A stretch of 64,000 nucleotides of DNA, from assembly GCA_947632435.1 (NCBI GenBank), contig CANRPC010000010.1:1-64000 (forward strand), in the 5' to 3' direction. The notes beneath the pieces are model-generated. The model did not search any database, was not told where the DNA came from, and saw only the letters and a list, made by a program, of their open reading frames with translations. Positions 11,524 to 57,674 of this stretch are shown here, piece by piece (the stretch's first letter is position 1; each line of letters starts with the position of its first letter). This stretch comes from an uncultured Bacilli bacterium. Lineage in GTDB: Bacteria; Bacillota_I; Bacilli_A; RFN20; CAG-449. The position numbers and the translations under genes are program-made.

Positions 11524-12504
11524 TTAATTTTGATATTTAATTTGTTCTTCTTTGTTAATTTTATATTCTTGCATTAAATTGCCTTCTAAATTTACATGAA
11601 ACAAATTAATCGCACTTATTTGATGATTATTATATGAAGAATAATAATAAATACCTTTTGAAGCATTGTAGCAAGAATTATATAAAGTGGCCATACATTC
11701 TTGTTCATTGATTCTTACACATCCTTTAGGTTCATTGACCGTTTCTAAGATGTGAAAGAATTGACTGATATTTTCTTTTTCATTGTCGCTAAATAAAGAA
11801 TTATATTTAACAAAAGCCGCGCGGATAAATCTTGATTGCGAAGAATAATCACCAGGGAGACCAAAAGCACCCAAACCATAACTATATTCTTTAATAGGTA
11901 AATCTTTTAAAAAGCTATTTTTTGGTGGTAAAGGTGATAGTTGAAAATAATTATTAAGTTGAAATAATTGAATATTAAAGGGAGGATTATTTGTTAAAAT
12001 ACCAACAGGATTATCGTAAATATTTATTCCTTCTTTCATAGCTTCAATAGTAACACTTTTATCAGAATCCGCTAAAAGCCAATGCAATTGACTAACATCA
12101 ACATTTTCACTAAATTTGATATTTGTAATATTTACTTTTTTCATTAATTCTAATGCTTCAACAACATTTTTGCATCTGCTTAAAATATAAGGGATTAATT
12201 CAAATGTTGCTACATTTTCGGTATTTTTAATTTCGATATTATATTTTGCATTTCCTACAAAATTTAATGCTGCTATAGCTAATCCTTTTTCATTACAAGC
12301 ATCAAAAAATAAAGGATAATTATCAATTATCGAACACATACCATACATGGCATAATGTCTTTTGATGTCCTTAGTATTTTTATCTTTAAAACTGAAGGAA
12401 AAGTTTCTAGGTATAACAACAATTTTTTCATGAAAACTATGGGAAAAATCTAAAGTTCTGCCAAAATAAAAATCTTTCGCTTTATAAGTTAACGCTGTAC
12501 ACAT
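11524..12504 (-). CDS. cbh: Choloylglycine hydrolase family enzyme, copy 2
   Basis: 326 aa Ntn-hydrolase, clearly paralogous to the gene at 8606. Cys2 follows Met, FGRTLDFS carries the Arg/Asp pair, and AALNFVGN, ILTNNPPF and SSQSRFIRAAF carry the Asn, Asn and Arg of the active site. It has no signal peptide. It is encoded alone on the minus strand, facing the polymerase/YolD pair. The start ATG (12502-12504) has no strong ribosome site. It may hydrolyse conjugated bile salts, penicillin V-like amides or acylated amino acids. Retention of two copies suggests different substrates or regulation. Confidence 0.85.
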   Translation of the reverse strand: MCTALTYKAKDFYFGRTLDFSHSFHEKIVVIPRNFSFSFKDKNTKDIKRHYAMYGMCSIIDNYPLFFDACNEKGLAIAALNFVGNAKYNIEIKNTENVATFELIPYILSRCKNVVEALELMKKVNITNIKFSENVDVSQLHWLLADSDKSVTIEAMKEGINIYDNPVGILTNNPPFNIQLFQLNNYFQLSPLPPKNSFLKDLPIKEYSYGLGAFGLPGDYSSQSRFIRAAFVKYNSLFSDNEKENISQFFHILETVNEPKGCVRINEQECMATLYNSCYNASKGIYYYSSYNNHQISAINLFHVNLEGNLMQEYKINKEEQIKYQN

Positions 12505-41780: not shown

Positions 41781-42858
41781 GGGATTATATATACATATTC
41801 CCTTTTGTGATGAAATTTGCCCTTATTGTGGTTTTTCTCATATTTTATCTTCTTGTAATAAACAAAATTTATATATTAATAGACTTAAAGAAGATATTTT
41901 AAAATACCAAAATCAATTTTTTTCATCTATATATATTGGAGGTGGAACACCATCTTCTTTAAATTACAAGCAACTTGAAGAACTTTTAAAATCTCTTCAA
42001 GTTTTTATACATAAAAATATTTCGTTTTCATTTGAAGCTAATCCCCAATCACTTGATTTAGAAAAAATAAAATTGTTAGCAAAATATAATGTTAATCGTA
42101 TCTCTATTGGCGTACAAACTTTTCAAAAACCTTTGCAGAAGAAATTAATGCGGTTTGCAACTTATTCGCAAATTAAAAATATTATTGAACAACTACATCA
42201 ATTTGGAATAAATGATATTAATCTTGATTTGATGTATGGGATAAATGGTGAGAATTTAACGCAATTAGAAAATGATTTAAAATTATTTACTTCTTTAGAT
42301 ATTAAACATATATCTTGTTATTGTTTACAAGTAGAAGAACACACAATATTTTATAATCAAAAAATAGAAGAAATGAATCAAGATGATGCTGCGGATGAGT
42401 ATCAATTAATTTGTGAATATTTAAAGAAAAAAGGCTTTATACATTACGAAATTAGTAACTTTGCTAAAAAGGGCTATGAAAGCAAACATAATTTATTATA
42501 TTGGCATAATGATGAATATGTTGGTTTAGGTATTTCAAGTGCTGGTTATGAAAATAATATACGTTACGTTAATGAAAATTCATTAACACATTATTTAAAT
42601 AGTGAATCAAAAAAAGAAGAAGAAATATTGTCCATATTAGATATAGAAAAATATTATATAATTTTAAATCTCAGATTGGCTAAAGGTATAAATTTTTTAG
42701 ATTTTAAAAAGAAATTTCATAAAGATTTTTTAAAAACATATGAAAAACAAATTGAAGCACTAAAAAAATACGATTATTTAAAAATAAATAAAAATAATTT
42801 ATATGTTAAAGAAAAATATTTTTTTATATTGAATACTATCTTGTTATACTTTTTTTAA
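41761..42858 (+). CDS. hemW: HemW-type radical SAM protein
   Basis: 365 aa. The radical-SAM cluster motif is C16-x3-C20-x2-C23 (FCDEICPYC), followed by YIGGGTPSSL and NRISIGVQTF, and the HemW-type HYEISNFAKKG. HemW proteins bind heme and are thought to deliver it; they are often misannotated as coproporphyrinogen dehydrogenases. The ATG at 41761 is preferred to a start 13 codons upstream because conservation begins at GLYIHIPFC. Its 3' end overlaps the pectinesterase gene by 4 bp, convergently. Confidence 0.9.
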   Translation: MRTKKNKGLYIHIPFCDEICPYCGFSHILSSCNKQNLYINRLKEDILKYQNQFFSSIYIGGGTPSSLNYKQLEELLKSLQVFIHKNISFSFEANPQSLDLEKIKLLAKYNVNRISIGVQTFQKPLQKKLMRFATYSQIKNIIEQLHQFGINDINLDLMYGINGENLTQLENDLKLFTSLDIKHISCYCLQVEEHTIFYNQKIEEMNQDDAADEYQLICEYLKKKGFIHYEISNFAKKGYESKHNLLYWHNDEYVGLGISSAGYENNIRYVNENSLTHYLNSESKKEEEILSILDIEKYYIILNLRLAKGINFLDFKKKFHKDFLKTYEKQIEALKKYDYLKINKNNLYVKEKYFFILNTILLYFF

Positions 42859-43763
42859 AATTTAAATTTAATTTTAATTTCCTTAATAATATCTTGATAT
42901 TCTAAATCATTTAAAAAATGAATTAATTTATTTCGTTTGTTATTAAATGGATATTCATAAAAACGATTATATATTTCAGGATGTGGATTATTCCAAAAAT
43001 CATAGCCATCAATAATATGATTTTCAAAAAAACAATTTAAAATTATTGTCTTACCAAAACTTCTCCAAGGACGAGAGATATAAACATTGTTTACTGACTC
43101 ATTTTTCTTTTTAAAAGTACAATTTAATACGTAAAAGCCATCATTTTGGAATAAACTATGACTTGGTGCAAAAACATAACCTGAATCTGAAGAAATTAAA
43201 GTGCAATTTTCAAAAAGTGAAGATCCCGAACCAAAAATAAAATCAATAGCGCCTTCAATTTCACAATTTATAAATTTAGAATAAACATTTCCTTCAATAA
43301 ATAATTCTTCTTTTGATAAAAAATTGAAGTAACGAATTTTTAAATCATCAGGAAGTGGTCCAAGAAATAATGTATCTTGGTAAGAAGTAAAATAACAATT
43401 CTTTGCTTTAAAATTATTTCCTAAAACCTCTAATGCAATGGCTTGATGATATTTTTTTTCATTAGCTAAATTCATTATGGAAATATTTTCTAAAGAACAA
43501 TTATTTCCTTTAACAATCATTGTCGCGGTTCTAAAAGTATTATAATCTCTTTTGTCTTCGTGTATTTTTAAACTATAATCATCAAATGCTATAATAACAT
43601 TTTCTTTTGATTCACCAATTATTTTAATATTATCTTTTTTTATTATGATTTTTTCTTTATAAAATCCATTTTTAATAAAAATTTCACCATTTTTACTTAC
43701 TAAATCTAATGCTTTAGCTAAACTATCTATATCAGTATTTTTTTCTACAACAACTTTTTGCAT
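42855..43763 (-). CDS. Pectinesterase (CE8), cytoplasmic
   Basis: 302-aa carbohydrate esterase family 8 enzyme that removes methyl esters from galacturonate residues, releasing methanol. The catalytic set is visible: YQDTLF with Q129 and D130, GAIDFIFG with D174, and SRPWR with R231 and W233. There is no signal peptide, unlike most secreted pectinesterases, so it should act on imported oligomers. The start at 43763 follows AAAGGTGTTAATT; an in-frame GTG three codons upstream lies inside that site. It is divergent from the pectin operon and shares its control region. Confidence 0.92.
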   Translation of the reverse strand: MQKVVVEKNTDIDSLAKALDLVSKNGEIFIKNGFYKEKIIIKKDNIKIIGESKENVIIAFDDYSLKIHEDKRDYNTFRTATMIVKGNNCSLENISIMNLANEKKYHQAIALEVLGNNFKAKNCYFTSYQDTLFLGPLPDDLKIRYFNFLSKEELFIEGNVYSKFINCEIEGAIDFIFGSGSSLFENCTLISSDSGYVFAPSHSLFQNDGFYVLNCTFKKKNESVNNVYISRPWRSFGKTIILNCFFENHIIDGYDFWNNPHPEIYNRFYEYPFNNKRNKLIHFLNDLEYQDIIKEIKIKFKF

Positions 43764-43833
43764 AATTAACACCTTTATATATTTTGCCTTTTTTTGAAGT
43801 AAAAAACAACTTTTGATTTAACCAAGAATTATA

Positions 43834-43915: not shown

Positions 43916-43926
43916 TATTATGTAAG

Positions 43927-43940
43927 TGAAAGCGCTTAAT
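43927..43940 (+). promoter_or_regulatory. cre/LacI-type operator in the operon leader
   Basis: TGAAAGCGCTTAAT matches 8 of 10 fixed positions of the CcpA cre consensus and has the AAGCGCTT core shared by LacI-family sites. It lies about 5-19 nt after the predicted transcription start, a position where a bound protein blocks elongation. Confidence 0.6.
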
Positions 43941-43955
43941 CTCGAGGTAATTAAA

Positions 43956-44732
43956 TTGTCTAAAGATACTTTTAAAATGATAGACCTAGCCATTTTCTCA
44001 ATTATAGCTATGATTTTAGAAGTAGTAATTTATTACTCCTCACAAGCATTTAAAATGGAAATGCCTGTGTTTGTATCTTTTACAATTGTTTTGTCTTTGA
44101 TTGCCATTTTTCGTTGGGGCATTGCAGGGACAATTGTTTGTATAGTTGGAGGACTTACTTCAGCTTTTGTACAAAATATTTCCTCTGGAGCACAATTTAA
44201 TCTTTTTTTGATTTATGGTGTTGGCAATGCTTTTGTTGCGATTGCTTATTTATTACTGATAAAAGATGGAAGAAAAAGAATATCTTCTAACACTGGCTTT
44301 TTATTTATTTATGAATTGGTCGGATATATATCAGTGATAAGTGGTCGATCATTACTTGGTGTATTGCTTTATAGAGGTTCATTTACTGATTATCTTCTTG
44401 CATTTATTGGACCAGAATGTCTTGGTGTATTATTAGGTACAATTGTTCTAATAATTGCCAATAAACCAAATGGTATTCTTGTTGAAATGAATGAATACAT
44501 TGTTAAGGTTCATGAAGAAATGAAAGAAGACAAGTTACATTTAAGAGCAATTAAAGATAGTGACCGCTACGATGTATCAGATGTAACAAAAAAAGACATG
44601 ATTAATGATGCTTCTTTATTAGATGGAGGTAATCTTAATCAAAATCAGCTTGACGAATTACAAATAATGCTTGATGAATCGTTAAGTGAAACTAAGGGGG
44701 AGGACTTGTTAAACGATGGAAAAAAAGATTGA
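43956..44732 (+). CDS. Polytopic membrane protein of the pectin operon
   Basis: 258 aa with five or six membrane segments in the first about 180 residues, followed by an acidic cytoplasmic tail of about 75 residues. It somewhat resembles small-molecule (ECF S-type) or YesL-like membrane proteins but is not firmly recognised. A TTG start at 43956 is proposed: GAGGT lies 7 nt upstream, while an in-frame GTG at 43926 sits in the cre-like operator with no ribosome site. As the first gene of the operon and overlapping the permease gene by 17 bp, it probably serves the transporter or senses its substrate. Confidence 0.6.
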   Translation: MSKDTFKMIDLAIFSIIAMILEVVIYYSSQAFKMEMPVFVSFTIVLSLIAIFRWGIAGTIVCIVGGLTSAFVQNISSGAQFNLFLIYGVGNAFVAIAYLLLIKDGRKRISSNTGFLFIYELVGYISVISGRSLLGVLLYRGSFTDYLLAFIGPECLGVLLGTIVLIIANKPNGILVEMNEYIVKVHEEMKEDKLHLRAIKDSDRYDVSDVTKKDMINDASLLDGGNLNQNQLDELQIMLDESLSETKGEDLLNDGKKD

Positions 44733-45738
44733 TGAAAGAGTCGTTGATGAAATCGAACGAAACCATTGGAAGACCGTAGGAAAAAGAATTTTAAAGGATT
44801 GGCGTGTATACGTCATGGCAATTCCATTAATTTTCTTCTTCATTTGTTGGCGATATTTACCTATGTCAGGTTTATTGATTGCTTTCAAAAGTTATGATGG
44901 TAAAGATGTTATTGGATCTCCTTGGAATGGATTTGCTGGTTTTAAAGAGTTGATGACTGGAAGTTATGCAACAACGGAAAATTCATTCTGGAAAGCGTTC
45001 AGAAACACATTTACATTAAGTTTCTATAGTATGATTTTCGGCTTTCCAATGCCAATTATTTTAGCACTATTATTTAGTGAAATTAAAAATGAAACATATA
45101 GAAGTGTGCTTCAAGTTTTATCATATTTACCTAAATTTGTTTCCTTAGTTGTTATTACTACATTAGTTAATTTAATGTGTAGTAATGGTAGTGAAACAAT
45201 GCATACAAGTGGTGGTCCAATTACGGTATTGCTTGAAACAATTCATATGATACCAAAGGGCACTAAATTGATGTATCAATCTGAATATTTTAGACCAATT
45301 TATCAAATTTCAGGAATTTGGGAAACTGCTGGTTATGGTTCTATTGTTTATTTCGCTGCGATTTTGAGCATTTCGCCAACATCTTATGAAGCTGCAAGAA
45401 TGGACGGTGCATCTAAATGGGCACAAATTAAATATGTTACTTTCCCTGGTATTGCTTCAACATTGACAATTATGTTAATTCTTGAAATCGGACATTTATT
45501 AACTGTTGGTTATGAAAAAGTTATGTTATTGTATTCACAAGAAACATATGAAACTGCAGATGTTATCTCAACATTTGTTATGCGTACTGGCGGTGTAGGA
45601 GATACAGGTTCAAATACTGGTACAATTGGTAAAACAATTGCTTCGGCTGCTGATTTATTTAATTCCTTGATAGCTATGTTATTAGTTATTGGTTCAAATA
45701 CTATTGCTAGACGTGTTTCGTCTACATCATTATATTAA
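44716..45738 (+). CDS. LplB-type sugar ABC permease
   Basis: 340 aa permease of the LplB/YtcP class (carbohydrate uptake 1). It has six membrane helices, the family marker YLPMSGLLIAFKSYDG near residues 47-62, and the EAA loop EAARMDGASKWAQIKYVTFPG. The C-terminal region carries ATADVISTFVMRTG-type sequence (ETADVISTFVMR) common to oligogalacturonide/rhamnogalacturonide systems. It pairs with the next permease. A Gly-rich stretch near the C-terminus is a small peculiarity. Confidence 0.88.
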   Translation: MEKKIDERVVDEIERNHWKTVGKRILKDWRVYVMAIPLIFFFICWRYLPMSGLLIAFKSYDGKDVIGSPWNGFAGFKELMTGSYATTENSFWKAFRNTFTLSFYSMIFGFPMPIILALLFSEIKNETYRSVLQVLSYLPKFVSLVVITTLVNLMCSNGSETMHTSGGPITVLLETIHMIPKGTKLMYQSEYFRPIYQISGIWETAGYGSIVYFAAILSISPTSYEAARMDGASKWAQIKYVTFPGIASTLTIMLILEIGHLLTVGYEKVMLLYSQETYETADVISTFVMRTGGVGDTGSNTGTIGKTIASAADLFNSLIAMLLVIGSNTIARRVSSTSLY

Positions 45739-45753
45739 AAAGGAGAATGAAAT

Positions 45754-46644
45754 ATGGGTGGTCGTTTAGATAGATCAGAGATAATTTTCAAAATTATTTC
45801 TTACACTTTATTAACTATATTCGCATTATTTTGTTTATATCCATTTATTTATACCATTTCCGCGGCTATTTCATCACAGGATGCTGTAGATGCTGGTAAA
45901 GTTGTTATTTTTCCAATAGGATTACAATTCGATGCATTTAAATATGTCTTTGAAGATAGAAGCTTCTGGTTAGCATATACATCTACTTTATTTGTTACTC
46001 TTTGGGGTACAGTTTGGTCAATGTTTATTTCGATTTTTGGTGGCTATGCACTTTCTAAAAAAAGAATACCATTTAATAAAGGTTTGAATTTCTTCTTAGT
46101 ATTTACAATGTGGTTCTCAGCTGGTATGATTCCAACTTTAATTAACTATCAACAAACAAGAGATATTTTCCAAAATATTGGTATTGTTGACCAAAAATGG
46201 GTTGTTGTTATCGCAATGGGACTTGCTGCTTATAATATTATCTTATTAAGAAATGCTTTCTCTGGCGTACCAAAAGAAATCGAAGAAGCAGCAACTGTTG
46301 ATGGTGCAAATGAATTCCAAATTGCAACTAAAGTTTTTATACCTATGTCTAAGGCTTCAATTGCAACAGTAGCATTGTTCTATGGTATCTCACGTTGGAA
46401 TGGTTACTTCTGGGCAAAGCAAATCATGGTTGGTGAAGATCAAATACCACCATTACAAGTTTTTATCCGTAATACTTTAGATAAAGTTCTTGGTGGTGAA
46501 GAAACTCACTCTTATGATGGATTCTCGGTTAGTTCATTATTCTATGCAATGATTGTTTGCGCTGTTGTTCCAATTATTATTATTTATCCATTTATTCAAA
46601 AATATTTTGCTGCTGGTGTTAACCTCGGTGGCGTTAAAGAATAA
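45754..46644 (+). CDS. YtcP-type sugar ABC permease
   Basis: 296 aa, six membrane helices. The opening GRLDRSEIIFKIISYTLLTIFALFCLYPF is the YtcP/LplC start, and EEAATVDGANEFQIATKVFIPMSK is the ATPase-docking EAA loop. It forms the pore with the LplB-like protein. AAAGGAG sits 8 nt before the ATG and 15 nt separate it from the previous gene. The 70 nt that follow contain a small AT hairpin (CTATTT/AAATAG) but no terminator. Confidence 0.9.
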   Translation: MGGRLDRSEIIFKIISYTLLTIFALFCLYPFIYTISAAISSQDAVDAGKVVIFPIGLQFDAFKYVFEDRSFWLAYTSTLFVTLWGTVWSMFISIFGGYALSKKRIPFNKGLNFFLVFTMWFSAGMIPTLINYQQTRDIFQNIGIVDQKWVVVIAMGLAAYNIILLRNAFSGVPKEIEEAATVDGANEFQIATKVFIPMSKASIATVALFYGISRWNGYFWAKQIMVGEDQIPPLQVFIRNTLDKVLGGEETHSYDGFSVSSLFYAMIVCAVVPIIIIYPFIQKYFAAGVNLGGVKE

Positions 46645-46714: not shown

Positions 46715-48931
46715 ATGAAAAAAATCAATCTTATCAAAGTATTAGCTTTTTCCAGTTTACTACTTGTTGGCTGTAATAGCACTACTACAACTTCATCTAA
46801 ATCAAGTGGATCAAATGGTTCTGGTGATTTATGTTATGATTTTACTTATGAACCTGCTGATAGACCTGCAAATCCACAACATGCTGAAGGTGATTTAGTT
46901 CGTTATACAGAATCATGGAGATCTGTTAAAACAGAAGGATGGGGAATCACAAAAGCAGTGGAAAGAGATCCTAAAAAATTAGAAGCTGCTTTAAAATTAT
47001 TTGATTACATGTATTCTGATGCTGGAAATGAATTAATGTCATATGGACCTTCTGAATATGGCTACCTTGCAATGGAAGGTGATGAAGTAAAAACTATTGA
47101 TTATCAAGGTAAAAAGGTTCCAGAATTATCTCAAGGAACATTAGCTCAACTTGCTGATCCAAAATTAGGAAATAACAACTATACTAACTATTATCGTTAT
47201 TTCGTTGGTGCTACATTACCTATTGGTTATGTTAAAGAGCAAGGTATGGAATATCAATGTACTCATGAAGGTGGTAAAGAAGGTTTAGCAAGAATTAATA
47301 AAAACATTGAAGTTGGTACTTTTGAACATCCATATGCTGGTGGAAATGCTGATTCAGAAAATGTTGATGTTTCTCCAATGGATCAAAGAACAACATTGAA
47401 TTTATCTATTCTTTATCAACAAAACGATTCAGAACCAAAATTTACTCCAGCAGGTAAAATTGGTAACGATGGTTATTTAGATCCAAAAGGAAATAAATAT
47501 TCTGTTGGTGACTGGAAACCTACATGGAAAGCACTTCAAGAAAGATTAAATCTTTCCTTTACTAATGCTACAGCAGGTAATAATGTCGATAATAACTATA
47601 CTGCTTATAAAGCACAAGGATTTGGCAATATTGATATTATTACAGGTAAAGCAAGTAGCTTTGCTGTTGATGGACCAACTAGCTTTGTTAATTTAATGTG
47701 CTATCTTGATAGAATGCCTAATTTCTTGAATTTCTTAGTTAATCACCCAATCGTTTTAAAAACAGTTACTTCACTTGGTGATAACAACCAAGATGCTATT
47801 TATTATGCACCATATTTTGATGGATATGATGACATTGAACGTATGACTCTTTTAAGAGAAGATTGGTTAGTTAAATTACTTGATGGAACAGATACTAATT
47901 TTGATACTGATACAACTTTAGAAACTCATTACACAGCAAAAATTGCTAAAAAAGATTATACAGTTAAAGTTGCTGCATCATTAGATAATACAGAAACTAA
48001 AGAAATTAAGAAAAATCAATCTACAAAAAATATTATTGAAATTCAAAATGCTCTTGAAGTTAAAAATGGTGAAACATTAACCAAAGCATTATTGCAATAC
48101 ATCAAAGATGTCTATGGTGAACAATACAAAAAACCATCTGATTTATTTATGGGAGTAGATGCTGCTTATGATGCTGATGAATTTATTGCATTATTAAGAT
48201 GTGTAAAAACAAATCCAGTATTATTAAGTGGTGATAAAACAAAAGAAATTATTCCATTCTATCCTCGTGCTGTTTCTAATGATCGTCTTTCTGATATCTT
48301 TAGATGGGGTGCTCATTTATGGGGTGTCCAAGGTGTTGAATCAAGAAGTGGATTCTTATTTATCGATAACGAAGATGAAAGAACCGTTAAAGATGCTCGT
48401 GGTCAATTAAGCACAGCTCAAATGCTTGACAATTTACATCAAATTTATGATGAAGGCTTAATTTTGAAAAACTTTACTGATAAAACTGCAACAGGTGGTA
48501 CATCAGGTAACTTTAATACTGATTTAGGTACTGCAAATAAAGGTTTTGCAACTTATGACTACTGTCAAACACAAACAGCTTTAAATACATATGGCTATGC
48601 AAATAATGAATTTAAATTAATTCCAGTTATTGGTGCATTTACAAATTGGGGAAATAAATTACAATACGTATTAACACCAACAACGTTTAAATTAACATCA
48701 GAAACAAATGATAGTCTTACAACTGATTATGTTGATTTAAATACAATTACTGTTGAAAAAGGAAAAACAAATCTTTGGACAAAATATGTTATTGCTGGAT
48801 TTGGTGGAACATATGAAGCTACACATGAAACATTATGTGCAACTCCTGAAGAATATGTTGAGCTTATGAAACAATATAAAGTTCAAGATTTAGAACAAAT
48901 TTATTCAAGTGCTTACCAAGTAATGTATTAA
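46715..48931 (+). CDS. Large sugar-binding lipoprotein with permuted segment order
   Basis: 738 aa, lipobox LLLVGC (C20). It belongs to the LplA/LipO-type binding proteins that serve LplB/YtcP permeases. Segment order is abnormal. Residues about 41-210 (RYTESWRSVKTEGWGITK, AALKLFDYMYSDAGN, GATLPIGYVKEQGMEYQC) form the block usually found late in the protein. Residues about 224-645 (DWKPTWKALQERLN, REDWLVKLLDG, YDADEFIALLR) form the usual first lobe. Residue 646 onward (LQYVLTPTTFKLTSE ... SSAYQVMY) is the usual end. The late block would normally sit at about residue 646. AAAGGAG precedes the ATG. It should capture oligogalacturonides. Confidence 0.88.
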   Translation: MKKINLIKVLAFSSLLLVGCNSTTTTSSKSSGSNGSGDLCYDFTYEPADRPANPQHAEGDLVRYTESWRSVKTEGWGITKAVERDPKKLEAALKLFDYMYSDAGNELMSYGPSEYGYLAMEGDEVKTIDYQGKKVPELSQGTLAQLADPKLGNNNYTNYYRYFVGATLPIGYVKEQGMEYQCTHEGGKEGLARINKNIEVGTFEHPYAGGNADSENVDVSPMDQRTTLNLSILYQQNDSEPKFTPAGKIGNDGYLDPKGNKYSVGDWKPTWKALQERLNLSFTNATAGNNVDNNYTAYKAQGFGNIDIITGKASSFAVDGPTSFVNLMCYLDRMPNFLNFLVNHPIVLKTVTSLGDNNQDAIYYAPYFDGYDDIERMTLLREDWLVKLLDGTDTNFDTDTTLETHYTAKIAKKDYTVKVAASLDNTETKEIKKNQSTKNIIEIQNALEVKNGETLTKALLQYIKDVYGEQYKKPSDLFMGVDAAYDADEFIALLRCVKTNPVLLSGDKTKEIIPFYPRAVSNDRLSDIFRWGAHLWGVQGVESRSGFLFIDNEDERTVKDARGQLSTAQMLDNLHQIYDEGLILKNFTDKTATGGTSGNFNTDLGTANKGFATYDYCQTQTALNTYGYANNEFKLIPVIGAFTNWGNKLQYVLTPTTFKLTSETNDSLTTDYVDLNTITVEKGKTNLWTKYVIAGFGGTYEATHETLCATPEEYVELMKQYKVQDLEQIYSSAYQVMY

Positions 48932-48944
48932 AATTGATTTTATT

Positions 48945-48983
48945 GATTAGGGTTGGAGATATTCAACTTCTCCAACTCTAATT
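48945..48983 (+). other. Strong intercistronic stem-loop after the binding-protein gene
   Basis: ATTAGGGTTGGAGA (48946-48959) pairs with TCTCCAACTCTAAT (48969-48982), 14 bp with one G-U and a 9-nt loop. No T-tract follows, so it fits an mRNA-stabilising or partially attenuating hairpin that raises binding-protein levels over the genes downstream. Confidence 0.65.
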
Positions 48984-49003
48984 TCATTAAAAAGGAGGTA
49001 TAT

Positions 49004-49834
49004 ATGTTAGAAGAAAATAAGTCAGTAAAAATGGCAAAAAGAATTTCTAAATTTCAAAAGATTTTTGTAATTTTATTTATGTTATCTTTTGTTTTGCTAT
49101 TTATTTATTGTTTAGGATTTGCAACGCCATTTATTGATGTAAAAAAAGTTAATTCAATTGCACCTGTTACTCAACTTGGCGAAGGCATGAAAGATGTACT
49201 AGTATCAAAATATTGTGTCGAAGGTGTTGATGCTAAAACTTGTGGCGGAGTATTTACAAATTCCAGTCATAATATTGTAAATTTAGCTTATTTTGTTAAA
49301 TTTGCATCAGATGATGTTCAAAATTTAAATCATTTGTTATTTGGTTTATCAATTGGTGGAATTTTAATTTCTTTATTATTATTTGTATATCGTGCTCAAA
49401 TAAGAAAAAGATATTATATAACTAATTATATTGCTGCAGGTATATGTACAATTTATTCTCTTGTAACATGTATTGTTCTCTTTGTATTATTTGGAAATTA
49501 TAATAATCAATTAAATAATGTTGAATATGATATTATTAATAAAGGTAATGCTGTGACAATTAATTTAAAAACAACATTTTCTAAAGCATCATTTGATTAT
49601 ATTTACGCTATTGGAAATGTAATTTTAATTATTATGTTAATTGCTGCGGCAGCTCTTGTATTTTTGCATATCATGAAATTTATTGCTTATAAAGATTTTG
49701 ATAAGATATATAATTCTACGACATCTGAAAATGCTACAGCTTATTCTTTAGATTATATTAAAGAAGAACAAAGCACTGCTAAAAATGTTTCTAGTGAAAT
49801 AAAAGAAGAAGTTAAAAAGGAGGATGAACAATAA
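49004..49834 (+). CDS. Four-helix membrane protein, pectin operon
   Basis: 276 aa with membrane segments at about 15-37, 100-122, 135-160 and 197-225, a loop of about 65 residues with two cysteines (YCVEGVDAKTCGG) between the first two, and an acidic Lys/Glu tail. Family not recognised. The ATG at 49004 follows a perfect AAGGAGGT; an upstream in-frame ATG at 48953 lies inside the stem-loop. It shares one base with the next gene. Its position between binding protein and ATPase genes suggests an accessory part of the transporter. Confidence 0.6.
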   Translation: MLEENKSVKMAKRISKFQKIFVILFMLSFVLLFIYCLGFATPFIDVKKVNSIAPVTQLGEGMKDVLVSKYCVEGVDAKTCGGVFTNSSHNIVNLAYFVKFASDDVQNLNHLLFGLSIGGILISLLLFVYRAQIRKRYYITNYIAAGICTIYSLVTCIVLFVLFGNYNNQLNNVEYDIINKGNAVTINLKTTFSKASFDYIYAIGNVILIIMLIAAAALVFLHIMKFIAYKDFDKIYNSTTSENATAYSLDYIKEEQSTAKNVSSEIKEEVKKEDEQ

Positions 49835-50415
49835 TGGAAAAAGAAAAAGTTATTGATTCTGTAAATGAAGAAGAAACTGCTACAGAATTAAATTCTTCTA
49901 CAGAAAATAATCAAAATTCTGAAGATAATAATGAACTTCCTAAACATACATTACTTCATCCAAATCCAGAAATTTTAAGATATTCAACAAATAAATTAAG
50001 TTTCTGGCTTGTTATATTAGCAATTATTTTAAATTGTTTAGCATTTCTTGATTATTATGGAAAAAGAAATGTCAAACCAGATATGGTACTTGGTGTTGAT
50101 GTTATTATTAATATTTTAGTTTTACTTGCTTGTTTTGTTACAGCAGAAGAAGTTAAAGCATATAGAAAACGTTTTGCTTATGTATCATTTCTTTTAGCAG
50201 TAGTTCAAATTGCTAGAATTTTCTTTATTCCATTAAGATATTACAAAGTTTTAATGGAATACAATAGTTTTGTTTATATTGTTATGCTTTATGTTTTAGG
50301 CGCAGTATTTCTTACTCTTGCAGGATTAATTTGTATTTTCCGTTCAAATATTTTAGTTAACTATTTAAATAGCATTAAAGATGAACCTGCAGAATCTAAA
50401 GGTGAGGTAGAATAA
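49834..50415 (+). CDS. Four-helix membrane protein, pectin operon (second)
   Basis: 193 aa. An acidic N-terminal tail of about 40 residues is followed by four hydrophobic segments at about 52-70, 83-100, 113-132 and 145-170. No known family. AAGGAGGATGAACA lies just before the ATG, and the stop is one base before the start of the ATPase gene, so expression is tightly linked to that ATPase. It shares four-helix topology, but no obvious sequence, with its upstream neighbour. Confidence 0.6.
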   Translation: MEKEKVIDSVNEEETATELNSSTENNQNSEDNNELPKHTLLHPNPEILRYSTNKLSFWLVILAIILNCLAFLDYYGKRNVKPDMVLGVDVIINILVLLACFVTAEEVKAYRKRFAYVSFLLAVVQIARIFFIPLRYYKVLMEYNSFVYIVMLYVLGAVFLTLAGLICIFRSNILVNYLNSIKDEPAESKGEVE

Positions 50416-50416
50416 A

Positions 50417-51514
50417 ATGGCACAAGTAAGATTAGATCACTTAAAAAAAATATATCCTGCAGAAAAAGGTACCGATGGTGGCAAAGGAGTTCTTGCTGTT
50501 GAAGATTTCAATATTGATATTGAAGATGGTGAGTTTATTGTTTTAGTTGGTCCATCTGGATGTGGTAAATCCACAACATTAAGAATGATTGCAGGTCTAG
50601 AAGAAATTTCAGAAGGACATGCATATGTTGATGGTAAAGAAGTAACAAATTTAGCCGCTAAAGATCGTGATATGGCAATGGTTTTCCAAAACTATGCTTT
50701 ATATGCACATATGACAATTTATCAAAATATGGCTTTCTCTCTTGTATTACGTAAGGAGAAAAAAGAAGTTATCCATGAAAAAGTCATGTATGCAGCAAAA
50801 GTTTTGGATTTAGTTTCTCAATTAAATAAAAAACCAGCTGCTTTATCAGGTGGTCAAAGACAAAGAGTTGCTGTTGGTAGAGCAATTGTAAGAAATCCAA
50901 AGGTATTCTTATTTGATGAGCCTTTATCAAATCTTGATGCTAAATTAAGAAGTTCTATGCGTCGTGAATTAAAATTATTACATAGAAAATTACATTCTAC
51001 AATTATCTATGTTACACATGACCAAATAGAAGCTTTAACTTTAGCAAATCGTATTGTTGTTATGTCAATGGGTAAAGTTCAACAAATTGATACCCCATTA
51101 AAAATTTATTCCGATCCAAATAATTTGTTTGTTGCAGGTTTTATTGGTAATCCACCTATGAATTTTATTAAAGGATATGTTGATGAAAAAGGAATATTTA
51201 TTAATGAAACTTGTCAATTTAAAATTCCAAATGAAAGTTTTGATTTCTTAAAGCAAAAAAATTATTTGAATAAAGAATTAGTATTAGGCTTTAGACCTGA
51301 ACATTGTATGGAAAACGGACATATTCCATGTCGCGTAGATTTATTAGAACATTTAGGACAAGCTACATTAATTCATTGCTATCTAGGTGAAAATAAAATT
51401 ATTGTTAAATTGCCTGGTTGGTTAGATTATGAACACGATTCAAATATTAATATTGATTTAAATAGTAAATTAATTTGTTTCTTCGATGGAATTACCGAAG
51501 ATAGAATTAGATAG
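50417..51514 (+). CDS. MsmX/UgpC-like sugar ABC ATPase, first copy
   Basis: 365 aa. Walker A GPSGCGKST, Q-loop VFQNYALYAHMT, signature LSGGQRQRVAVGRA, Walker B VFLFDEPLSNLDAK, switch His in YVTHDQIEAL, and a C-terminal MalK-like OB domain with GFRPEHC. It energises carbohydrate uptake with the LplB/YtcP permeases. The usual MalK sequence YPHM after the Q-loop is YAHM here. A second ATPase of the same family lies 1.2 kb downstream, so the two may form a heterodimer or serve different permeases. Confidence 0.92.
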   Translation: MAQVRLDHLKKIYPAEKGTDGGKGVLAVEDFNIDIEDGEFIVLVGPSGCGKSTTLRMIAGLEEISEGHAYVDGKEVTNLAAKDRDMAMVFQNYALYAHMTIYQNMAFSLVLRKEKKEVIHEKVMYAAKVLDLVSQLNKKPAALSGGQRQRVAVGRAIVRNPKVFLFDEPLSNLDAKLRSSMRRELKLLHRKLHSTIIYVTHDQIEALTLANRIVVMSMGKVQQIDTPLKIYSDPNNLFVAGFIGNPPMNFIKGYVDEKGIFINETCQFKIPNESFDFLKQKNYLNKELVLGFRPEHCMENGHIPCRVDLLEHLGQATLIHCYLGENKIIVKLPGWLDYEHDSNINIDLNSKLICFFDGITEDRIR

Positions 51515-51522
51515 GAGGATGT

Positions 51523-52131
51523 ATGGATTTTAAAGGTTACGCAAGAAAAAAGGCAATTGCTTTAAAAAGAAATTTCTATACTATTCCATTTGTCTTTAAT
51601 ATAATTACTCTTGTCATATTTACATGTGCAATTTATGTACATGCTCAAGTATGTCCTCGTGTGGATTATCAAGAAACAAATAAATTTATTTTACAACTTA
51701 ATCACTTGAATGCTTTATTCTTATTTATTATTACTTTATTTTCTATTTTAGCAGTTGTTGCTTATATAAAATATATGGGAAGAATCAAGAATTATTTCAT
51801 GTTATTTATCTATTATGTTCTTTCAATTTCTCAAATTATTCTTGAAGTATTCTTACTAATCGGTATTCAAAAAGATTACCAAGTGAAAAAAGTTGCCGAT
51901 AATCCAAGCGCAGCATTATTACAAACTATATCATTAGAAAAAAATTCAATTTTCTTAATTTATTTACATTTCGTTTTTTTAGGAATTACATTAATTATTG
52001 TTAGCTTTGCACCTCTTATTCAAAAATTATTAAAATCTGTTAAATTTTCACATATTAGTGAAGATGGTTCTATAGAAGTAAATGCTACTGAAGAAACTAT
52101 TAGTGAAACAGTTAATAGTGAAGAAAAATAA
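51523..52131 (+). CDS. Four-helix membrane protein, pectin operon (third)
   Basis: 202 aa with hydrophobic segments at about 20-38, 62-82, 92-113 and 143-168, a basic N-terminus and an acidic Thr/Glu tail. No recognised family. TAGGAGGATGT precedes the ATG 8 nt after the ATPase stop. It resembles the proteins at 49004 and 49834 in size, helix number and acidic tail, which suggests a related role, but direct homology is not evident by eye. Confidence 0.6.
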   Translation: MDFKGYARKKAIALKRNFYTIPFVFNIITLVIFTCAIYVHAQVCPRVDYQETNKFILQLNHLNALFLFIITLFSILAVVAYIKYMGRIKNYFMLFIYYVLSISQIILEVFLLIGIQKDYQVKKVADNPSAALLQTISLEKNSIFLIYLHFVFLGITLIIVSFAPLIQKLLKSVKFSHISEDGSIEVNATEETISETVNSEEK

Positions 52132-52133
52132 TA

Positions 52134-52673
52134 ATGAAAAAAGATAAAAAAACAAAAGAAACTATAGAAATGGATCCTTATGCAATTGATAAGTTGCATA
52201 AGGTTCCTTTTTGGCTTAAGGTGCTTTTTCTAAAATATTGGTTTTATGGAGCATTAAACTTTTATACTCTTATTGGAATATATGCTTCTGATACTAATTG
52301 GCAATGGAGAGCTATTTTTACTGGTTTAATTGGTGGTGCATTCCATGATGTTGTTATTAATAAAATTATTTTATTATGGGAAACAGATAAGCACGAAGGA
52401 CAGCATTTTACAATGATGCTTTCTAAAAAATATATTTCATTTATAGTGAATATAATTTATTTTGTGGTAGTAATGGTAATTTCTTATATTTTAATTAACT
52501 GGTTAGGATTTATTTTTAATGAAAAATTAAAAGTTAATTTTGTTCCAGGACAAGAGCCATTTTCTTTTGCATTAATAATATTAATTGTTGATGGCATATT
52601 TTTAATTATTAAGTATATAATTAAACGTATTATTAATTTAATTAAAAGTAAAAAAAATGCTAGCGATAACTAG
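52134..52673 (+). CDS. Membrane protein, pectin operon (fourth)
   Basis: 179 aa. After a Lys-rich N-terminus come hydrophobic segments at about 32-50, 58-78, 97-125 and 140-166, ending in a basic tail. Distinctive stretches are KYWFYGALNFYTLIGIY and GGAFHDVVINKIILLWE. No family is recognised. It starts 2 nt after the previous gene and has no ribosome site of its own apart from the GAAGAAAAA run, so it is translationally coupled. It may complete a membrane complex around the transporter. Confidence 0.6.
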   Translation: MKKDKKTKETIEMDPYAIDKLHKVPFWLKVLFLKYWFYGALNFYTLIGIYASDTNWQWRAIFTGLIGGAFHDVVINKIILLWETDKHEGQHFTMMLSKKYISFIVNIIYFVVVMVISYILINWLGFIFNEKLKVNFVPGQEPFSFALIILIVDGIFLIIKYIIKRIINLIKSKKNASDN

Positions 52674-52744: not shown

Positions 52745-53833
52745 ATGGCTGAATTAAAATTAGTCAATATTGATAAAATTTATGATAATGGCTTTGAAGC
52801 AGTTCATAAATTTAATCTTGATATTAAAAATAATGAATTTATTATTTTTGTTGGTCCATCTGGATGTGGTAAATCAACAACTTTAAGAATGATTGCTGGA
52901 CTTGAAGAAATTACCAAAGGTGAATTATATATTGATGGTAAATTAGTTAATAATTTGTCACCTAATGAAAGAGGCATTGCGATGGTTTTCCAAAGTTATG
53001 CTTTGTATCCTACAATGACTGTTTATGATAATTTGGCATTTGGATTGCGATTAAAAGGTTTTGATGAAGATGAAATTGAAGAAAGAGTTAATGAAGTTTC
53101 TAAAATTTTAGGTCTTGAAAAATATCTTCAAAGAAAACCAAAAAATTTATCTGGTGGACAAAGACAAAGAGTGGCACTTGGTAGATCCTTAATTCGCCAT
53201 ACGAAAGTCTTCTTAATGGATGAACCTTTATCAAATTTGGATGCAATTCAAAGAGTTAATATGCGTTCTGAAATTATTAAAATTCATCGTCGTGTTGGAG
53301 CAACAACTATTTATGTTACCCATGACCAAGTTGAAGCAATGACAATGGCAGATAGAATTGTTGTTATGAAAGATGGTTATATTCAACAAGTTGGTACACC
53401 AAAAGAATTATATTTTAAGCCATATAATTTATTCGTTGCAGGATTTATTGGTGATCCTCCTATGAATTTCTTTAATGGCAAAATAGATGGTGAAAATTTT
53501 GTAACTGAGGATGGATATGTATTTAAACTTTCAGGATATGATAAAGAGCATTTAAGTCGTATTGCTGAACATGAACATGTTGTTATGGGCTTTAGACCAG
53601 AAGATTGTTCTACTGAATTTCTTTCAGTTCCTGCGATAAAAGAAAATATGATTGTGGAAATCAATGAAATGCTTGGTGATACTTTAAATATATATGGTGA
53701 TATTGGTTGCAATAAGATGGTTGTTCGTACTAACCCATTTACAAAATTTGAGTTAGATAAAGAATTCCATTTTGAAGTTGCCTACGAACATTTACATTTC
53801 TTTGATAAAGATACAACAAATAGAATTTATTAA
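52745..53833 (+). CDS. MsmX/UgpC-like sugar ABC ATPase, second copy
   Basis: 362 aa with Walker A GPSGCGKST, Q-loop VFQSYALYPTMT, signature LSGGQRQRVALGRS, Walker B VFLMDEPLSNLDA, switch His in YVTHDQVEAM, and the MalK-like C-terminal domain with GFRPEDC. It has its own AAGGAGG ribosome site after a 71-bp gap that shows no terminator. Bacterial uptake operons of this type usually have no ATPase gene or one; this operon has two, both with intact motifs. Confidence 0.92.
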   Translation: MAELKLVNIDKIYDNGFEAVHKFNLDIKNNEFIIFVGPSGCGKSTTLRMIAGLEEITKGELYIDGKLVNNLSPNERGIAMVFQSYALYPTMTVYDNLAFGLRLKGFDEDEIEERVNEVSKILGLEKYLQRKPKNLSGGQRQRVALGRSLIRHTKVFLMDEPLSNLDAIQRVNMRSEIIKIHRRVGATTIYVTHDQVEAMTMADRIVVMKDGYIQQVGTPKELYFKPYNLFVAGFIGDPPMNFFNGKIDGENFVTEDGYVFKLSGYDKEHLSRIAEHEHVVMGFRPEDCSTEFLSVPAIKENMIVEINEMLGDTLNIYGDIGCNKMVVRTNPFTKFELDKEFHFEVAYEHLHFFDKDTTNRIY

Positions 53834-53843
53834 TTTTTTATTC

Positions 53844-53891
53844 ACTCATATACTCTTTTATTGATTAGAGTATATGAGTTTCTTATTTTTT
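53844..53891 (+). terminator. Perfect 12-bp hairpin with T-rich tract before the GH28 gene
   Basis: ACTCATATACTC (53844-53855) pairs with GAGTATATGAGT (53868-53879) and is followed by TTCTTATTTTTT. It looks like an intrinsic terminator or attenuator inside the operon. No new promoter is visible before the next gene, so partial read-through is expected. Confidence 0.6.
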
Positions 53892-53903
53892 AGGAGGAAA
53901 AAT

Positions 53904-55445
53904 ATGTTTGAATTTATTTTTGTTTCGCCTACTTCACTAACTATTGAATTAATTAATAAAGATATTTATTACACGAAAAAAGAATATGATGTTTATCTTG
54001 ATGATAAATTATTAAAAAAAGGTGTAAAAACAAATGTTGTTTCTTTATATGATTTGATTCCAAATAGAGAGTATAAAGTAAGAATAGATGATTGCGAAAA
54101 AAAAGTCCGTACAAAAAATGTAAGCTGCATTTTTGATATTATGGATTTTGGTGTTCATAAAAATGGAACCGATGATGACACAAAAGCTATTAATCAAGCC
54201 ATTATGATGACTCCTGAAAATGGTTTACTTGTTTTTCCTGAAGGAGTTTATAGAATTACATCTTTATTTTTGAAATCAAATATTTTTATTGAACTAAAAA
54301 AAGGTGCAATATTATTAGCTTCCGAAAATGTGGATGATTATCCTATATTTACTGGTGAATTACCTAGATATGATATTGATGATAATGTTCAATTAGGACA
54401 ATGGGAAGGAAGTCCGTTCCCTAATAAAGCTTCTATTATTGCAGGTTATTGGTTAAATAATGTTTATTTATATGGCGAAGGCACTATTGATGGCAATGCA
54501 CAAAATAGTACATGGTGGATTAATCATAAAACTCATCCATGGGGACGTCCAAGATTATTATTTTTAGATGGTTGTAATGATGTTCAAATTCAAGGTTTAT
54601 CTTTTCAAAATACTCCTTGTTGGACACTTCATCCTTTCTTTTCAAAAAAAATTGGATTTTATGATATTAGAGTAACAAATCCCAAAGATTCACCTAATAC
54701 AGATGGAATGGATCCTGAATCTTGTGATGATGTAAAAATTATTGGTGTTATTTTCTCTGTTGGCGATGATTGTATTGCTATTAAATCTGGAAAAATGTAT
54801 ATGGGAATGAAATATAAAACACCAAGTTCTAATTTTATCATCCGCAATTGTTTAATGAAAGATGGTCATGGTGCTATAGTTTTAGGATCAGAGATGTCTG
54901 GTGGAATAAATAATTTGCAAGTGGAAAGATGTATTTTCCAAAATACTGATCGCGGATTAAGAATTAAAACCCGTAGGGGAAGAGGAAAATATGCCATTAT
55001 AGATGGTGTTGAATTTAAAGATATAATTATGGATGGAGTATTAACACCACTTGTCATTAATATGTTTTATTTTTGTGATCCTGATGGAAAAACAGAATAT
55101 GTTTATTCTAAAGAAAAATTGCCAGTCGATGATAGAACTCCATATTTAGGTAAATTTACTTTTAAAAATATTGTGGCGACAAATGTTGAATGGGCTGCAG
55201 GATATTTTTACGGTTTACCAGAAAGACCAATTGAAGAAATAAATATTGAAAATTGTACCTTTGAATATAAATTAGATGCTACTGAAGGATGCCCTGCAAT
55301 GATGTCATTTGCAGAAAAAGTTTCTAAACGTGGTTTTTCTTTAAATTATGTTAATAAAGTTTCATTAAAAAATGTAAAACTATTTGGTAATGTCGGCGAA
55401 AGAGTTATAATAAATAATGTAGAAAGCATTACTGATGATGAATAA
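53904..55445 (+). CDS. Polygalacturonase (GH28), cytoplasmic
   Basis: 513 aa. An N-terminal FN3-like domain of about 75 residues precedes the GH28 beta-helix. Catalytic motifs are N265-T-D267, G287-D288-D289, G321-H322-G323 and R353-I354-K355. It hydrolyses alpha-1,4 galacturonosyl links; without a signal peptide it must work on imported oligomers and is probably exo-acting. The start at 53904 follows AGGAGGAAAAAT; an ATG at 53874 falls inside the upstream hairpin. It overlaps the next gene by 11 bp. Confidence 0.92.
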   Translation: MFEFIFVSPTSLTIELINKDIYYTKKEYDVYLDDKLLKKGVKTNVVSLYDLIPNREYKVRIDDCEKKVRTKNVSCIFDIMDFGVHKNGTDDDTKAINQAIMMTPENGLLVFPEGVYRITSLFLKSNIFIELKKGAILLASENVDDYPIFTGELPRYDIDDNVQLGQWEGSPFPNKASIIAGYWLNNVYLYGEGTIDGNAQNSTWWINHKTHPWGRPRLLFLDGCNDVQIQGLSFQNTPCWTLHPFFSKKIGFYDIRVTNPKDSPNTDGMDPESCDDVKIIGVIFSVGDDCIAIKSGKMYMGMKYKTPSSNFIIRNCLMKDGHGAIVLGSEMSGGINNLQVERCIFQNTDRGLRIKTRRGRGKYAIIDGVEFKDIIMDGVLTPLVINMFYFCDPDGKTEYVYSKEKLPVDDRTPYLGKFTFKNIVATNVEWAAGYFYGLPERPIEEINIENCTFEYKLDATEGCPAMMSFAEKVSKRGFSLNYVNKVSLKNVKLFGNVGERVIINNVESITDDE

Positions 55446-56037
55446 TTTGAATCTATATATCAAGTTAAATAAAGAATTGAGTCATAGAAAAGCAGAATTT
55501 GTTTTTAAATCAATTATAGGTAATTCTTTTCAATTAAATTGGGGTGATGATGAGATATTTGGGAGTTTAGTACTAGAACATCCAACTACTCAATTTGTTA
55601 ATTTAAAGTTAAATTATGATGCTTTATGTTCTGATTTAATGGATGATGTTACTATCGTCATTGTTCCAAGATTTGAAGATACATTAGAAAAAATTGTTCG
55701 TGAAAAATGTCAACCTGGACTTTATCCTATTGTAAAAATTCTTCCTCAACTTTTAAATGAAGATGAAGAATTGTTTGAAAAATTAAGTGAATTTAAAAAT
55801 AAGGTTAATGAAGATATTCTTGAAACGGTAAAAGTTTATTTAGAGTTAAATATGTCTGTGAATATGGTTGCTAGGCTTGTCTATACACACCGTAATACGG
55901 TAAATTACCGAATTACAAGATTTATTGAAATGACAGGGATAGATATACGTTCATCATTAAACGGTTATTATGTTTATATGCTTATATCCTGGAAGAATCC
56001 AGTTTATAATAAAATTAAAGAGGAGGAAAATTTATGA
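55435..56037 (+). CDS. Stand-alone PucR/CdaR-type HTH protein
   Basis: 200 aa. The C-terminal third (LELNMSVNMVARLVYTHRNTVNYRITRF) is the PucR/CdaR helix-turn-helix, which in CdaR controls sugar-diacid use. The N-terminal part is too short for the usual sensor domain and resembles only the linker region. It starts inside the polygalacturonase gene and overlaps eda as ATGA. It is a good candidate for the local regulator of pectin genes, perhaps binding the palindrome at 43888-43906. That link is inference. Confidence 0.8.
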   Translation: MMNNLNLYIKLNKELSHRKAEFVFKSIIGNSFQLNWGDDEIFGSLVLEHPTTQFVNLKLNYDALCSDLMDDVTIVIVPRFEDTLEKIVREKCQPGLYPIVKILPQLLNEDEELFEKLSEFKNKVNEDILETVKVYLELNMSVNMVARLVYTHRNTVNYRITRFIEMTGIDIRSSLNGYYVYMLISWKNPVYNKIKEEENL

Positions 56038-56645
56038 CTATTCTAGAAAAAATTCAAGAAGTCAAATTAGTACCAGTTGTTGTACTAAACAAAGTAGAAG
56101 ATACTTTACCAACAATTAAAGCTTTGCATGATGGCGATGTTCCAGTTGCAGAAATTTGTTTTAGAACACCTTGTGCAGCTGAATGCATTAAAAAAGCATG
56201 TGAAGCATATCCTAATGATTTAATTGGTGCTGGTACTGTAATTAACGCTAAACAATGTGAAGAAGCTATTGCTTGTGGCGCAAAATTTATTGTATCACCT
56301 GGTTTATCAAGATCAGTATACGAAGTTTGTAAAAAACATAATGTTCCATATTTACCAGGTATTGTCACACCTACTGAAATTATGGAAGCATTAGAATTAG
56401 GTTTAACAACATTGAAATTCTTCCCTGCAGGAGTATTTGGAGGACTTAAAGCAATTAAAGCTTTAGGTGCAGCATTCCCATCTGTTAAATTCATGCCTAC
56501 TGGTGGAGTTAATAATGAAAATTTAAAAGAATTTGTTGAATGTGATAAAATTCTTGCATGTGGCGGTTCTTGGTTAGTAAAAAAAGATCCTGCAGAAACT
56601 GTAAAAGTTTGCTTAGAAGCTAGAAAGATTATTAAAGGAGAATAA
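56034..56645 (+). CDS. eda: KDPG aldolase
   Basis: 203-aa class I aldolase cleaving 2-keto-3-deoxy-6-phosphogluconate to pyruvate and glyceraldehyde-3-phosphate. E40 in PVAEICFRT is the catalytic acid/base with R44-T45 next to it, and the Schiff-base lysine is K128 in TLKFFPAG. GAGGAGG precedes the ATG. It is followed 4 nt later by kdgK, which makes its substrate, so this is the end of the galacturonate pathway. Confidence 0.96.
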   Translation: MTILEKIQEVKLVPVVVLNKVEDTLPTIKALHDGDVPVAEICFRTPCAAECIKKACEAYPNDLIGAGTVINAKQCEEAIACGAKFIVSPGLSRSVYEVCKKHNVPYLPGIVTPTEIMEALELGLTTLKFFPAGVFGGLKAIKALGAAFPSVKFMPTGGVNNENLKEFVECDKILACGGSWLVKKDPAETVKVCLEARKIIKGE

Positions 56646-56648
56646 AAA

Positions 56649-57674
56649 ATGGCAAAAGTAGTTACAATGGGCGAAATAATGCTTCGCTTATCAACACCTG
56701 GAAATAAAAGATTTGTACAATCTGATGTATTTGATGTAGTTTATGGCGGTGGTGAAGCTAATGTTGCAGTCAGCTGCGCTAATTATGGACACGATGCATA
56801 TTTTGTATCAAAATTACCTACTCATGAAATTGGTCAATCAGCAGTAAATGCTTTAAGAAAATATGGAGTTCATACAGATTATATTGCTCGTGGTGGCGAT
56901 AGAGTTGGTATTTATTATCTTGAAACAGGTGCTTCAATGCGCCCTTCAAAAGTAATTTATGATCGTGCACATTCTGCAATTGCTGAAGCAGATGTTAAAG
57001 ATTTTGATTTTGATAAAATTATGGAAGGTGCTTCTTGGTTCCACTGGTCAGGAATTACACCTGCAATTTCTGATAAAGCAGCAGAACTTGTTAAATTAGC
57101 TTGTCAAGCTGCAAAACGTCATGGAGTTACAGTATCTTGTGATTTAAATTTCCGTAAAAAATTATGGACATCAGAAAAAGCAATTTCTATTATGCGTCCA
57201 TTAATGGAATATGTAGATGTTTGTATTGGTAATGAAGAAGATGCTGAATTATGTTTAGGCTTTAAACCAGAAGCTAATGTTGAAGCTGGTGAAACAGGTG
57301 CTGAAGGTTATAAAGGCATTTTTAAACAAATGGCTAAAGAATTTAATTTTAAATATGTAATTTCTACATTGCGTGAATCATTTTCCGCAACACATAATGG
57401 TTGGAAAGCATTAATTTATAACGGAAAAGAATTCTATGAATCAAAACGTTATGATATTAATCCAATTATTGATCGTGTTGGTGGAGGAGATTCCTTCTCT
57501 GGTGGAATTATTCATGGATTATTAACTTATCCTAATGATCAAGGAAAAGCATTAGAGTTTGCAGTTGCAGCATCAGCTTTAAAGCATACAATTAATGGTG
57601 ATTTCAATTTAGTATCAACTTCAGAAGTTGAATCACTTGCTGGTGGCAATGCAAATGGACGTGTACAACGTTAA
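56649..57674 (+). CDS. kdgK: 2-keto-3-deoxygluconate kinase
   Basis: 341-aa PfkB-family kinase that phosphorylates KDG to KDPG. YGGGEANVAVSCANYG is the N-terminal sugar-binding motif, GDLNF-like SCDLNFRKKLW follows, and GGGDSFSGG carries the catalytic base D281. It ends in a Gly/Asn-rich tail. AAAGGAGAATAAAA precedes the ATG. Codon use is richer in GC-ending codons than in addAB, as expected of a highly expressed gene. It is the last gene before the operon terminator. Confidence 0.95.
   Translation: MAKVVTMGEIMLRLSTPGNKRFVQSDVFDVVYGGGEANVAVSCANYGHDAYFVSKLPTHEIGQSAVNALRKYGVHTDYIARGGDRVGIYYLETGASMRPSKVIYDRAHSAIAEADVKDFDFDKIMEGASWFHWSGITPAISDKAAELVKLACQAAKRHGVTVSCDLNFRKKLWTSEKAISIMRPLMEYVDVCIGNEEDAELCLGFKPEANVEAGETGAEGYKGIFKQMAKEFNFKYVISTLRESFSATHNGWKALIYNGKEFYESKRYDINPIIDRVGGGDSFSGGIIHGLLTYPNDQGKALEFAVAASALKHTINGDFNLVSTSEVESLAGGNANGRVQR

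Follow-up and report, generated by a model that had tools for sequence, protein, structure and literature searches.

The literature search, which took in few subscription papers and is limited evidence to that extent, returned a single clade of naturally permuted binding proteins, that of the type I protein TpMglB-2, and no naturally permuted binding protein of the AlgQ type or of type II. The glucose-binding lipoprotein TpMglB-2 (Tp0684) is circularly permuted, yet it retains sugar binding and closure; proteins with this topology occur mainly in treponemes and Gram-positive gut bacteria, and the subclass has been named Type Ic (PMC4990184). Permutation by duplication, in which a tandem duplication is followed by the loss of redundant pieces, is an established route to such arrangements and is exemplified by swaposin and the DNA methyltransferases (PMC3320104).

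The gene described here lies at 46715-48931 of the window, i.e., the whole stretch of 64,000 nucleotides that was analysed, and its product most likely represents a natural, lineage-specific, internal circular permutation of an AlgQ-like, lipid-anchored, operon-encoded sugar-binding protein. TpMglB-2 offers a parallel, being likewise a naturally occurring ABC binding protein that is anchored by a lipid and has a permuted chain order. However, TpMglB-2 has a type I/cluster B fold whereas the window protein is AlgQ-type, which places the latter outside Type Ic; the first three N-lobe strands of TpMglB-2 are C-terminal, whereas the window protein displaces a different block and keeps its C-terminal block in place; and the topology of TpMglB-2 is clade-wide, whereas the order seen here was found in one genome only. 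The swapped segment order of swaposin and the DNA methyltransferases is attributed to duplication and loss, as is proposed below for the window protein, in which, by contrast, the signal peptide and C-terminal block are unmoved and the permutation is internal.

The best solved relatives of the family are AlgQ1 and AlgQ2, the alginate oligosaccharide-binding proteins of Sphingomonas sp. A1 (PDB 1y3n, 3vlw, 1kwh, 4tqu). The profile of the canonical family members matched AlgQ1 at 8.6e-31, and blocks A and B of the window protein (defined in the table) both aligned to it. AlgQ1 has the canonical order, in contrast to the window protein, where A comes before B; the family is also some 200 residues longer than AlgQ1 and 17% identical to it over the fold.

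Block order in the window protein and its relatives

The gene is a single unbroken reading frame of 738 codons, starting ATGAAAAAAATC and with a ribosome-binding site (GAAAGGAG) just before the start; as read from the sequence, a lipobox (LLVGC) at residues 16-20 indicates an N-terminal lipoprotein signal peptide. A family HMM of 716 columns, built from 20 canonical relatives with the window protein left out, matched the product in three pieces: HMM 464-630 at residues 42-218 (235 bits), HMM 49-483 at residues 218-651 (490 bits) and HMM 629-715 at residues 651-738 (33 bits). Columns 49-715 were covered once, in swapped order and with no part missing, only about 20 columns (464-483) being double; this three-piece match gives the order S-A-B-C, as opposed to S-B-A-C in the relatives. 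The window protein therefore carries the complete profile of the AlgQ-like carbohydrate-binding lipoprotein family and is a homologous but rearranged protein, outside the canonical B-A-C members. The original prediction had set the boundaries at residues 41-210, at 224 onward and at a break near 646-650, and the edges of the HMM matches bore these out to within a few residues.

Segments of the window protein and neighbouring genes
Feature	Residues	Positions	Strand	Basis
S: lipoprotein signal peptide and Ser/Thr-rich linker	1-41	46715..46837	+	sequence; usual N-terminal location
x': probable duplicate of the hinge strand, degenerate (HMM 464-483)	42-61	46838..46897	+	gapless alignment, codon-position GC
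A: displaced block, VRYTESWRSVKTEGWGI ... GTFEHP, about HMM 484-617	62-207	46898..47335	+	profile match
New A/B linker, YAGGNADSENVDVSPM region	208-223	47336..47383	+	joint without counterpart in any relative
B: main block	224-631	47384..48607	+	490-bit profile match; adjoins signal-peptide linker in all relatives
x: intact hinge strand, FKLIPVIGAFTNWGN region	632-650	48608..48664	+	family position HMM 464-483; runs straight into C
C: C-terminal block and stop codon	651-738	48665..48931	+	HMM 629-715, 33 bits; usual C-terminal location
ABC permease subunit (BPD_transp_1)		44716..45738	+	48-64% identical in syntenic loci
ABC permease subunit (BPD_transp_1)		45754..46644	+	56-68% identical in syntenic loci
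MalK-type ATPase (ABC_tran + OB_MalK)		50417..51514	+	
Second MalK-type ATPase		52745..53833	+	
GH28 polygalacturonase-family protein		53874..55445	+	substrate context
Pectinesterase-family protein		42855..43772	-	substrate context
KDPG/KHG aldolase and PfkB-family sugar kinase		56034..57674	+	galacturonate catabolism context

Relatives were gathered from whole genomes and GTDB contigs, and searched block by block after dividing the window protein into S (residues 1-40), A (41-215), B (216-648) and C (649-738). B preceded A in every relative where both blocks were found, amounting to about 60 genes at the level of order, class and phylum and including the paralogue in the window genome (G000:C3); these were compared by their A and B match coordinates, genomes with two copies among them. 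C followed A wherever it was detectable. The A-first order was not found in any of these approximately 60 homologous genes, and only the window genome displays S-A-B-C. Block A was itself about 46-66% identical to the block located after B in order-level relatives, while the first part of S resembled the beginning of a G268 gene (23 amino acids, 70% identical). The same swap was evident against the PDB sequence of AlgQ1: residues 314-397 of the window protein corresponded to AlgQ1 81-158, residues 488-642 to 158-297, and residues 63-197 to 303-414.

Two segments are thus in exchanged order with both retained, which is a feature of circularly permuted proteins, and the initial description of a circularly permuted or segment-swapped solute-binding protein is supported by the profile and by the relatives, all of which are canonical. 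The old termini are not joined, nor have new ones been formed, as they would be in a strict circular permutation; the permutation is internal because both ends of the protein, the signal peptide and the C-terminal 90 residues, are unmoved. It had also been proposed that one lobe was moved. A segment is displaced, although it is not a whole lobe but just the part following the hinge strand FxLxPVLPxVxxW (HMM 484-630).

Pfam and NCBIfam scans of the whole window protein found no family, and four canonical relatives scanned with Pfam gave no meaningful score, from which it follows that the family is not covered by these libraries. This applies to the AlgQ-like binding lipoproteins of about 700 amino acids as a group (the window protein and L038-L057, from Bacilli and Clostridia genomes), the tested canonical members included. 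The LplA/LipO type had served as the reference at the outset; the assignment to solute-binding proteins stands, but the closest solved relatives are AlgQ1 and AlgQ2 and no library model matches. The lack of a library family might suggest an ordinary collinear binding protein misread by eye. However, no collinear alignment with the family was obtained; the matches to the profile, to the separate blocks and to AlgQ1 were high-scoring and non-collinear, so that this reading is already refuted and has practically no chance of being correct.

Two apparent exceptions among the relatives were dismissed. G064:C111, a candidate second permuted or intermediate gene on account of a single match at 81-309 with a TAA, proved to be the A-C end of a canonical gene split by a contig edge. 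G524:C4 had a match beginning at 161 with a TAG, but this TAG divides an upstream permease gene from a 708-codon frame with an ordinary start, and the match is read as a spurious extension. A viral contig collection was also searched for relatives and produced no match.

Operon context, orthology and predicted substrate

The window gene adjoins two ABC permease genes and has MalK-type ATPases nearby, as is typical of the family. Among the full-gene loci on GTDB contigs, as far as these were fetched, the arrangement permease-permease-binding protein-membrane proteins-ATPase surrounded the canonical gene in 19 of 20, bearing in mind that L044 is a short contig without neighbours and that L038 stops soon after the gene. 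The permeases of the window were closest (64-68%) to those of L050 and L055, which belong to the same family, and in the tree of block B the window protein adjoined the corresponding genes of the same family in L004 and L014, weakly (57% bootstrap). By its position, the window gene is the orthologue of the canonical syntenic genes; this position and the placement in the B tree together imply that the order changed on the window lineage.

Several unnamed small membrane proteins (48953-49834, 49834-50415, 51523-52131, 52134-52673 and 43926-44732) occurred in the same order in most syntenic loci, with approximately 22-37% identity; the upstream one, at 43926, had no Pfam match. These conserved proteins may have an accessory role in transporters of this class. 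Two MalK-type ATPases were present in one operon; the ATPase in the operons of relatives resembled the first more closely (56-65%) and the second less so (46-51%). An additional ATPase, closer to the second MalK-type ATPase of the window, was located upstream in L049 and L056.

The neighbouring GH28, pectinesterase, KDPG aldolase and PfkB-type kinase genes point to oligogalacturonides as the cargo, and kinship with the alginate-binding AlgQ proteins would agree with this, since alginate is also a polyuronate. Elsewhere in the window, the ORF list showed two choloylglycine-hydrolase-like proteins (MCTA..., Ntn-type) at 8606-9583 and 11524-12504, in opposite orientations on either side of a DinB/UmuC-like polymerase gene (9583-11082).

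Junctions and the probable origin of the rearrangement

The assembly is a fragmented draft of 42 contigs, probably derived from a metagenome, and the S-A-B-C order is unique to the window genome; both facts speak for a true gene in the order S-B-A-C, with a block transposed by the assembler. All 63 columns that were invariant in the 20 relatives were kept by the window protein (35 in B, 26 in A and 2 in C), which fits a functional protein, though a merely shuffled artefact of a normal gene would be expected to pass the same comparison. However, an artefact of this kind requires three false joins, with a repeat at all three boundaries. There were no shared 10-mers among the 200-base windows around the joints and no near-identical copies of the junctions elsewhere in the genome, where near matches were short (longest exact match, 19 nt); with repeats absent, the assembly graph would have had no means to swap the blocks. 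The gene is, moreover, interior to its contig (46.7 of 66.8 kb) rather than at an edge. The lack of repeats applies equally to a programmed or reversible DNA rearrangement that toggles between the canonical and permuted orders. Beyond the swapped order itself nothing favours such a system: no notable inverted or direct repeats were seen at the junctions, there was no second cassette, and no adjacent recombinase gene was noted in the ORF list. It was rejected for the repeat-free junctions, and is highly improbable.

All three junctions were in frame. Pure transposition would need the same codon phase at all three cuts, which would occur by chance in 1 of 9 cases, and an assembly error would in addition have had to fall in variable linkers. 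At the S/B cut the profile is at its least conserved (columns 49-55), while the x/A cut coincides with an insertion site (483) and the A/C cut falls within 622-630; the effect of conservation was clear at S/B and modest at the other two, which ranged from the 8th to the 35th percentile of local conservation. The peptide spanning the A/B joint is GTFEHPYAGGNADSENVDVSPMDQRTTLNLS. The new linkers carry a coding signature in the correct frame, in that G-C content at the first, second and third codon positions was 70/45/0 for residues 42-61 and 69/44/6 for residues 208-223, compared with 43/36/13 for B.

Residues 42-61 (x') amount to about 20 coding residues beyond what pure transposition would give, and an assembly swap leaves them unexplained. 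Their alignment with the hinge strand of class-level homologues, DFxYQAILPPVxDWLGDG, was gapless (FTYEPADRPANPQHAEGDLVRYTES against FKYQAILPPVVDWLGDGEYFHFSES). A shuffling test of this likeness was weak, its score being reached by 10 of 400 shuffles with a broad profile and by 29 of 400 with a narrow one. The alignment is suggestive of a degenerate duplicate of the hinge segment; if real, this would fit duplication followed by loss and not a simple swap during assembly. Considering the junctions together, a misassembled gene is a distinctly unlikely explanation.

Blocks A and B may have had different histories. The branch leading to the window protein was long in the tree of B (0.73) and short in that of A (0.19), and A was nearer to L012 and L029 than B predicts (z = 3.3-3.6). 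This unexpected similarity, along with a flanking hinge segment that is possibly double but diverged, could reflect a hybrid gene, in which x' and A came from another parent (a paralogue or horizontal donor) and were inserted after the signal peptide, with the native A deleted. Such a hybrid would be a natural sub-case that overlaps with the preferred permutation. Against it, both trees placed the protein loosely near L004 and L014 (supports 18-57), the codon-position GC of A matched that of B, and the sole paralogue in the window genome was only about 32% identical in A. Almost every order-level relative gave a positive residual for A, and faster evolution of B would account for this equally well. 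The pattern in the trees could be due to B having evolved faster once the rearrangement had occurred, or to A having had an origin of its own; a hybrid origin is considered improbable, if less so than an error of assembly.

The most economical route to the permuted gene would be permutation by duplication. Starting from an ancestral order of signal-B-A-C, either the whole gene or only its B-A part would have been duplicated in tandem, after which the B of the first copy and the A of the second were lost. The hinge segment would thereby remain in two copies, and block A, with the probable x', would come to lie between the signal-peptide linker and B. Two family copies only about 4 kb apart (49086-50513 and 53643-55241) are carried by G441:C2, an arrangement from which permutation by duplication could start; two copies per genome were also present in G436, G565, G575 and G506.

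Predicted structure and significance

The AlphaFold2 model of a canonical relative, L041, was confident (mean pLDDT 90.6, pTM 0.91) and aligned over its full length with AlgQ2 and AlgQ1 (about 700 columns, 699; TM by target 0.75-0.81), predicting a two-lobed binding-protein fold for the canonical proteins. The window protein was modelled from the separate A and B fragments of its relatives as rows, of which four covered A and none covered C, and the result, which with so few rows says little about packing, had a mean pLDDT of 64.6 and a pTM of 0.58. This model was confident in B and in the first strand and helices of A, and low in the remainder of A and in C, where the alignment was shallow. 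It gave about 441 aligned columns against the PDB, as opposed to 699 for the canonical model; a shorter match is expected from a sequential aligner applied to a model that is reliable mainly in B.

In folds like that of maltose-binding protein, the segment FxLxPVLP...W...TESWRSVKTEGWGI would form the crossing from lobe to lobe, so that the displaced block would begin at a hinge. The tether would then enter on the hinge side of A, at the lobe crossing, with A packed in its usual place; a flexible, 16-residue linker rich in Gly, Asn, Asp and Ser (GGNADSENVDVS) would bridge A to the first strand of B, and after B the chain would pass from the hinge strand straight into C. The rearranged pieces are presumed to pack as they do in the relatives, and the protein probably still binds pectin-derived oligogalacturonides and hands them to the two permeases encoded just upstream. 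It seems reasonably likely that this is the first AlgQ-type (type II) sugar-binding protein to be found permuted in nature: a functional, operon-encoded lipoprotein in which the post-hinge segment became N-terminal through duplication and loss, the entry of the tether was changed, and the degenerate hinge copy is the scar.

Binding proteins must open, close and dock on a permease, and a natural permutation is therefore a strong test of the role of chain order. If the interpretation is correct, the window protein would add an independent example to that of TpMglB-2, from another fold class and with about 20 canonical relatives in syntenic loci for comparison; the proposed route of duplication and loss, and the influence that the position of the tether has on ligand binding, would become directly testable. 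Since sequential search tools catch permuted genes only piecewise, others may have been overlooked.
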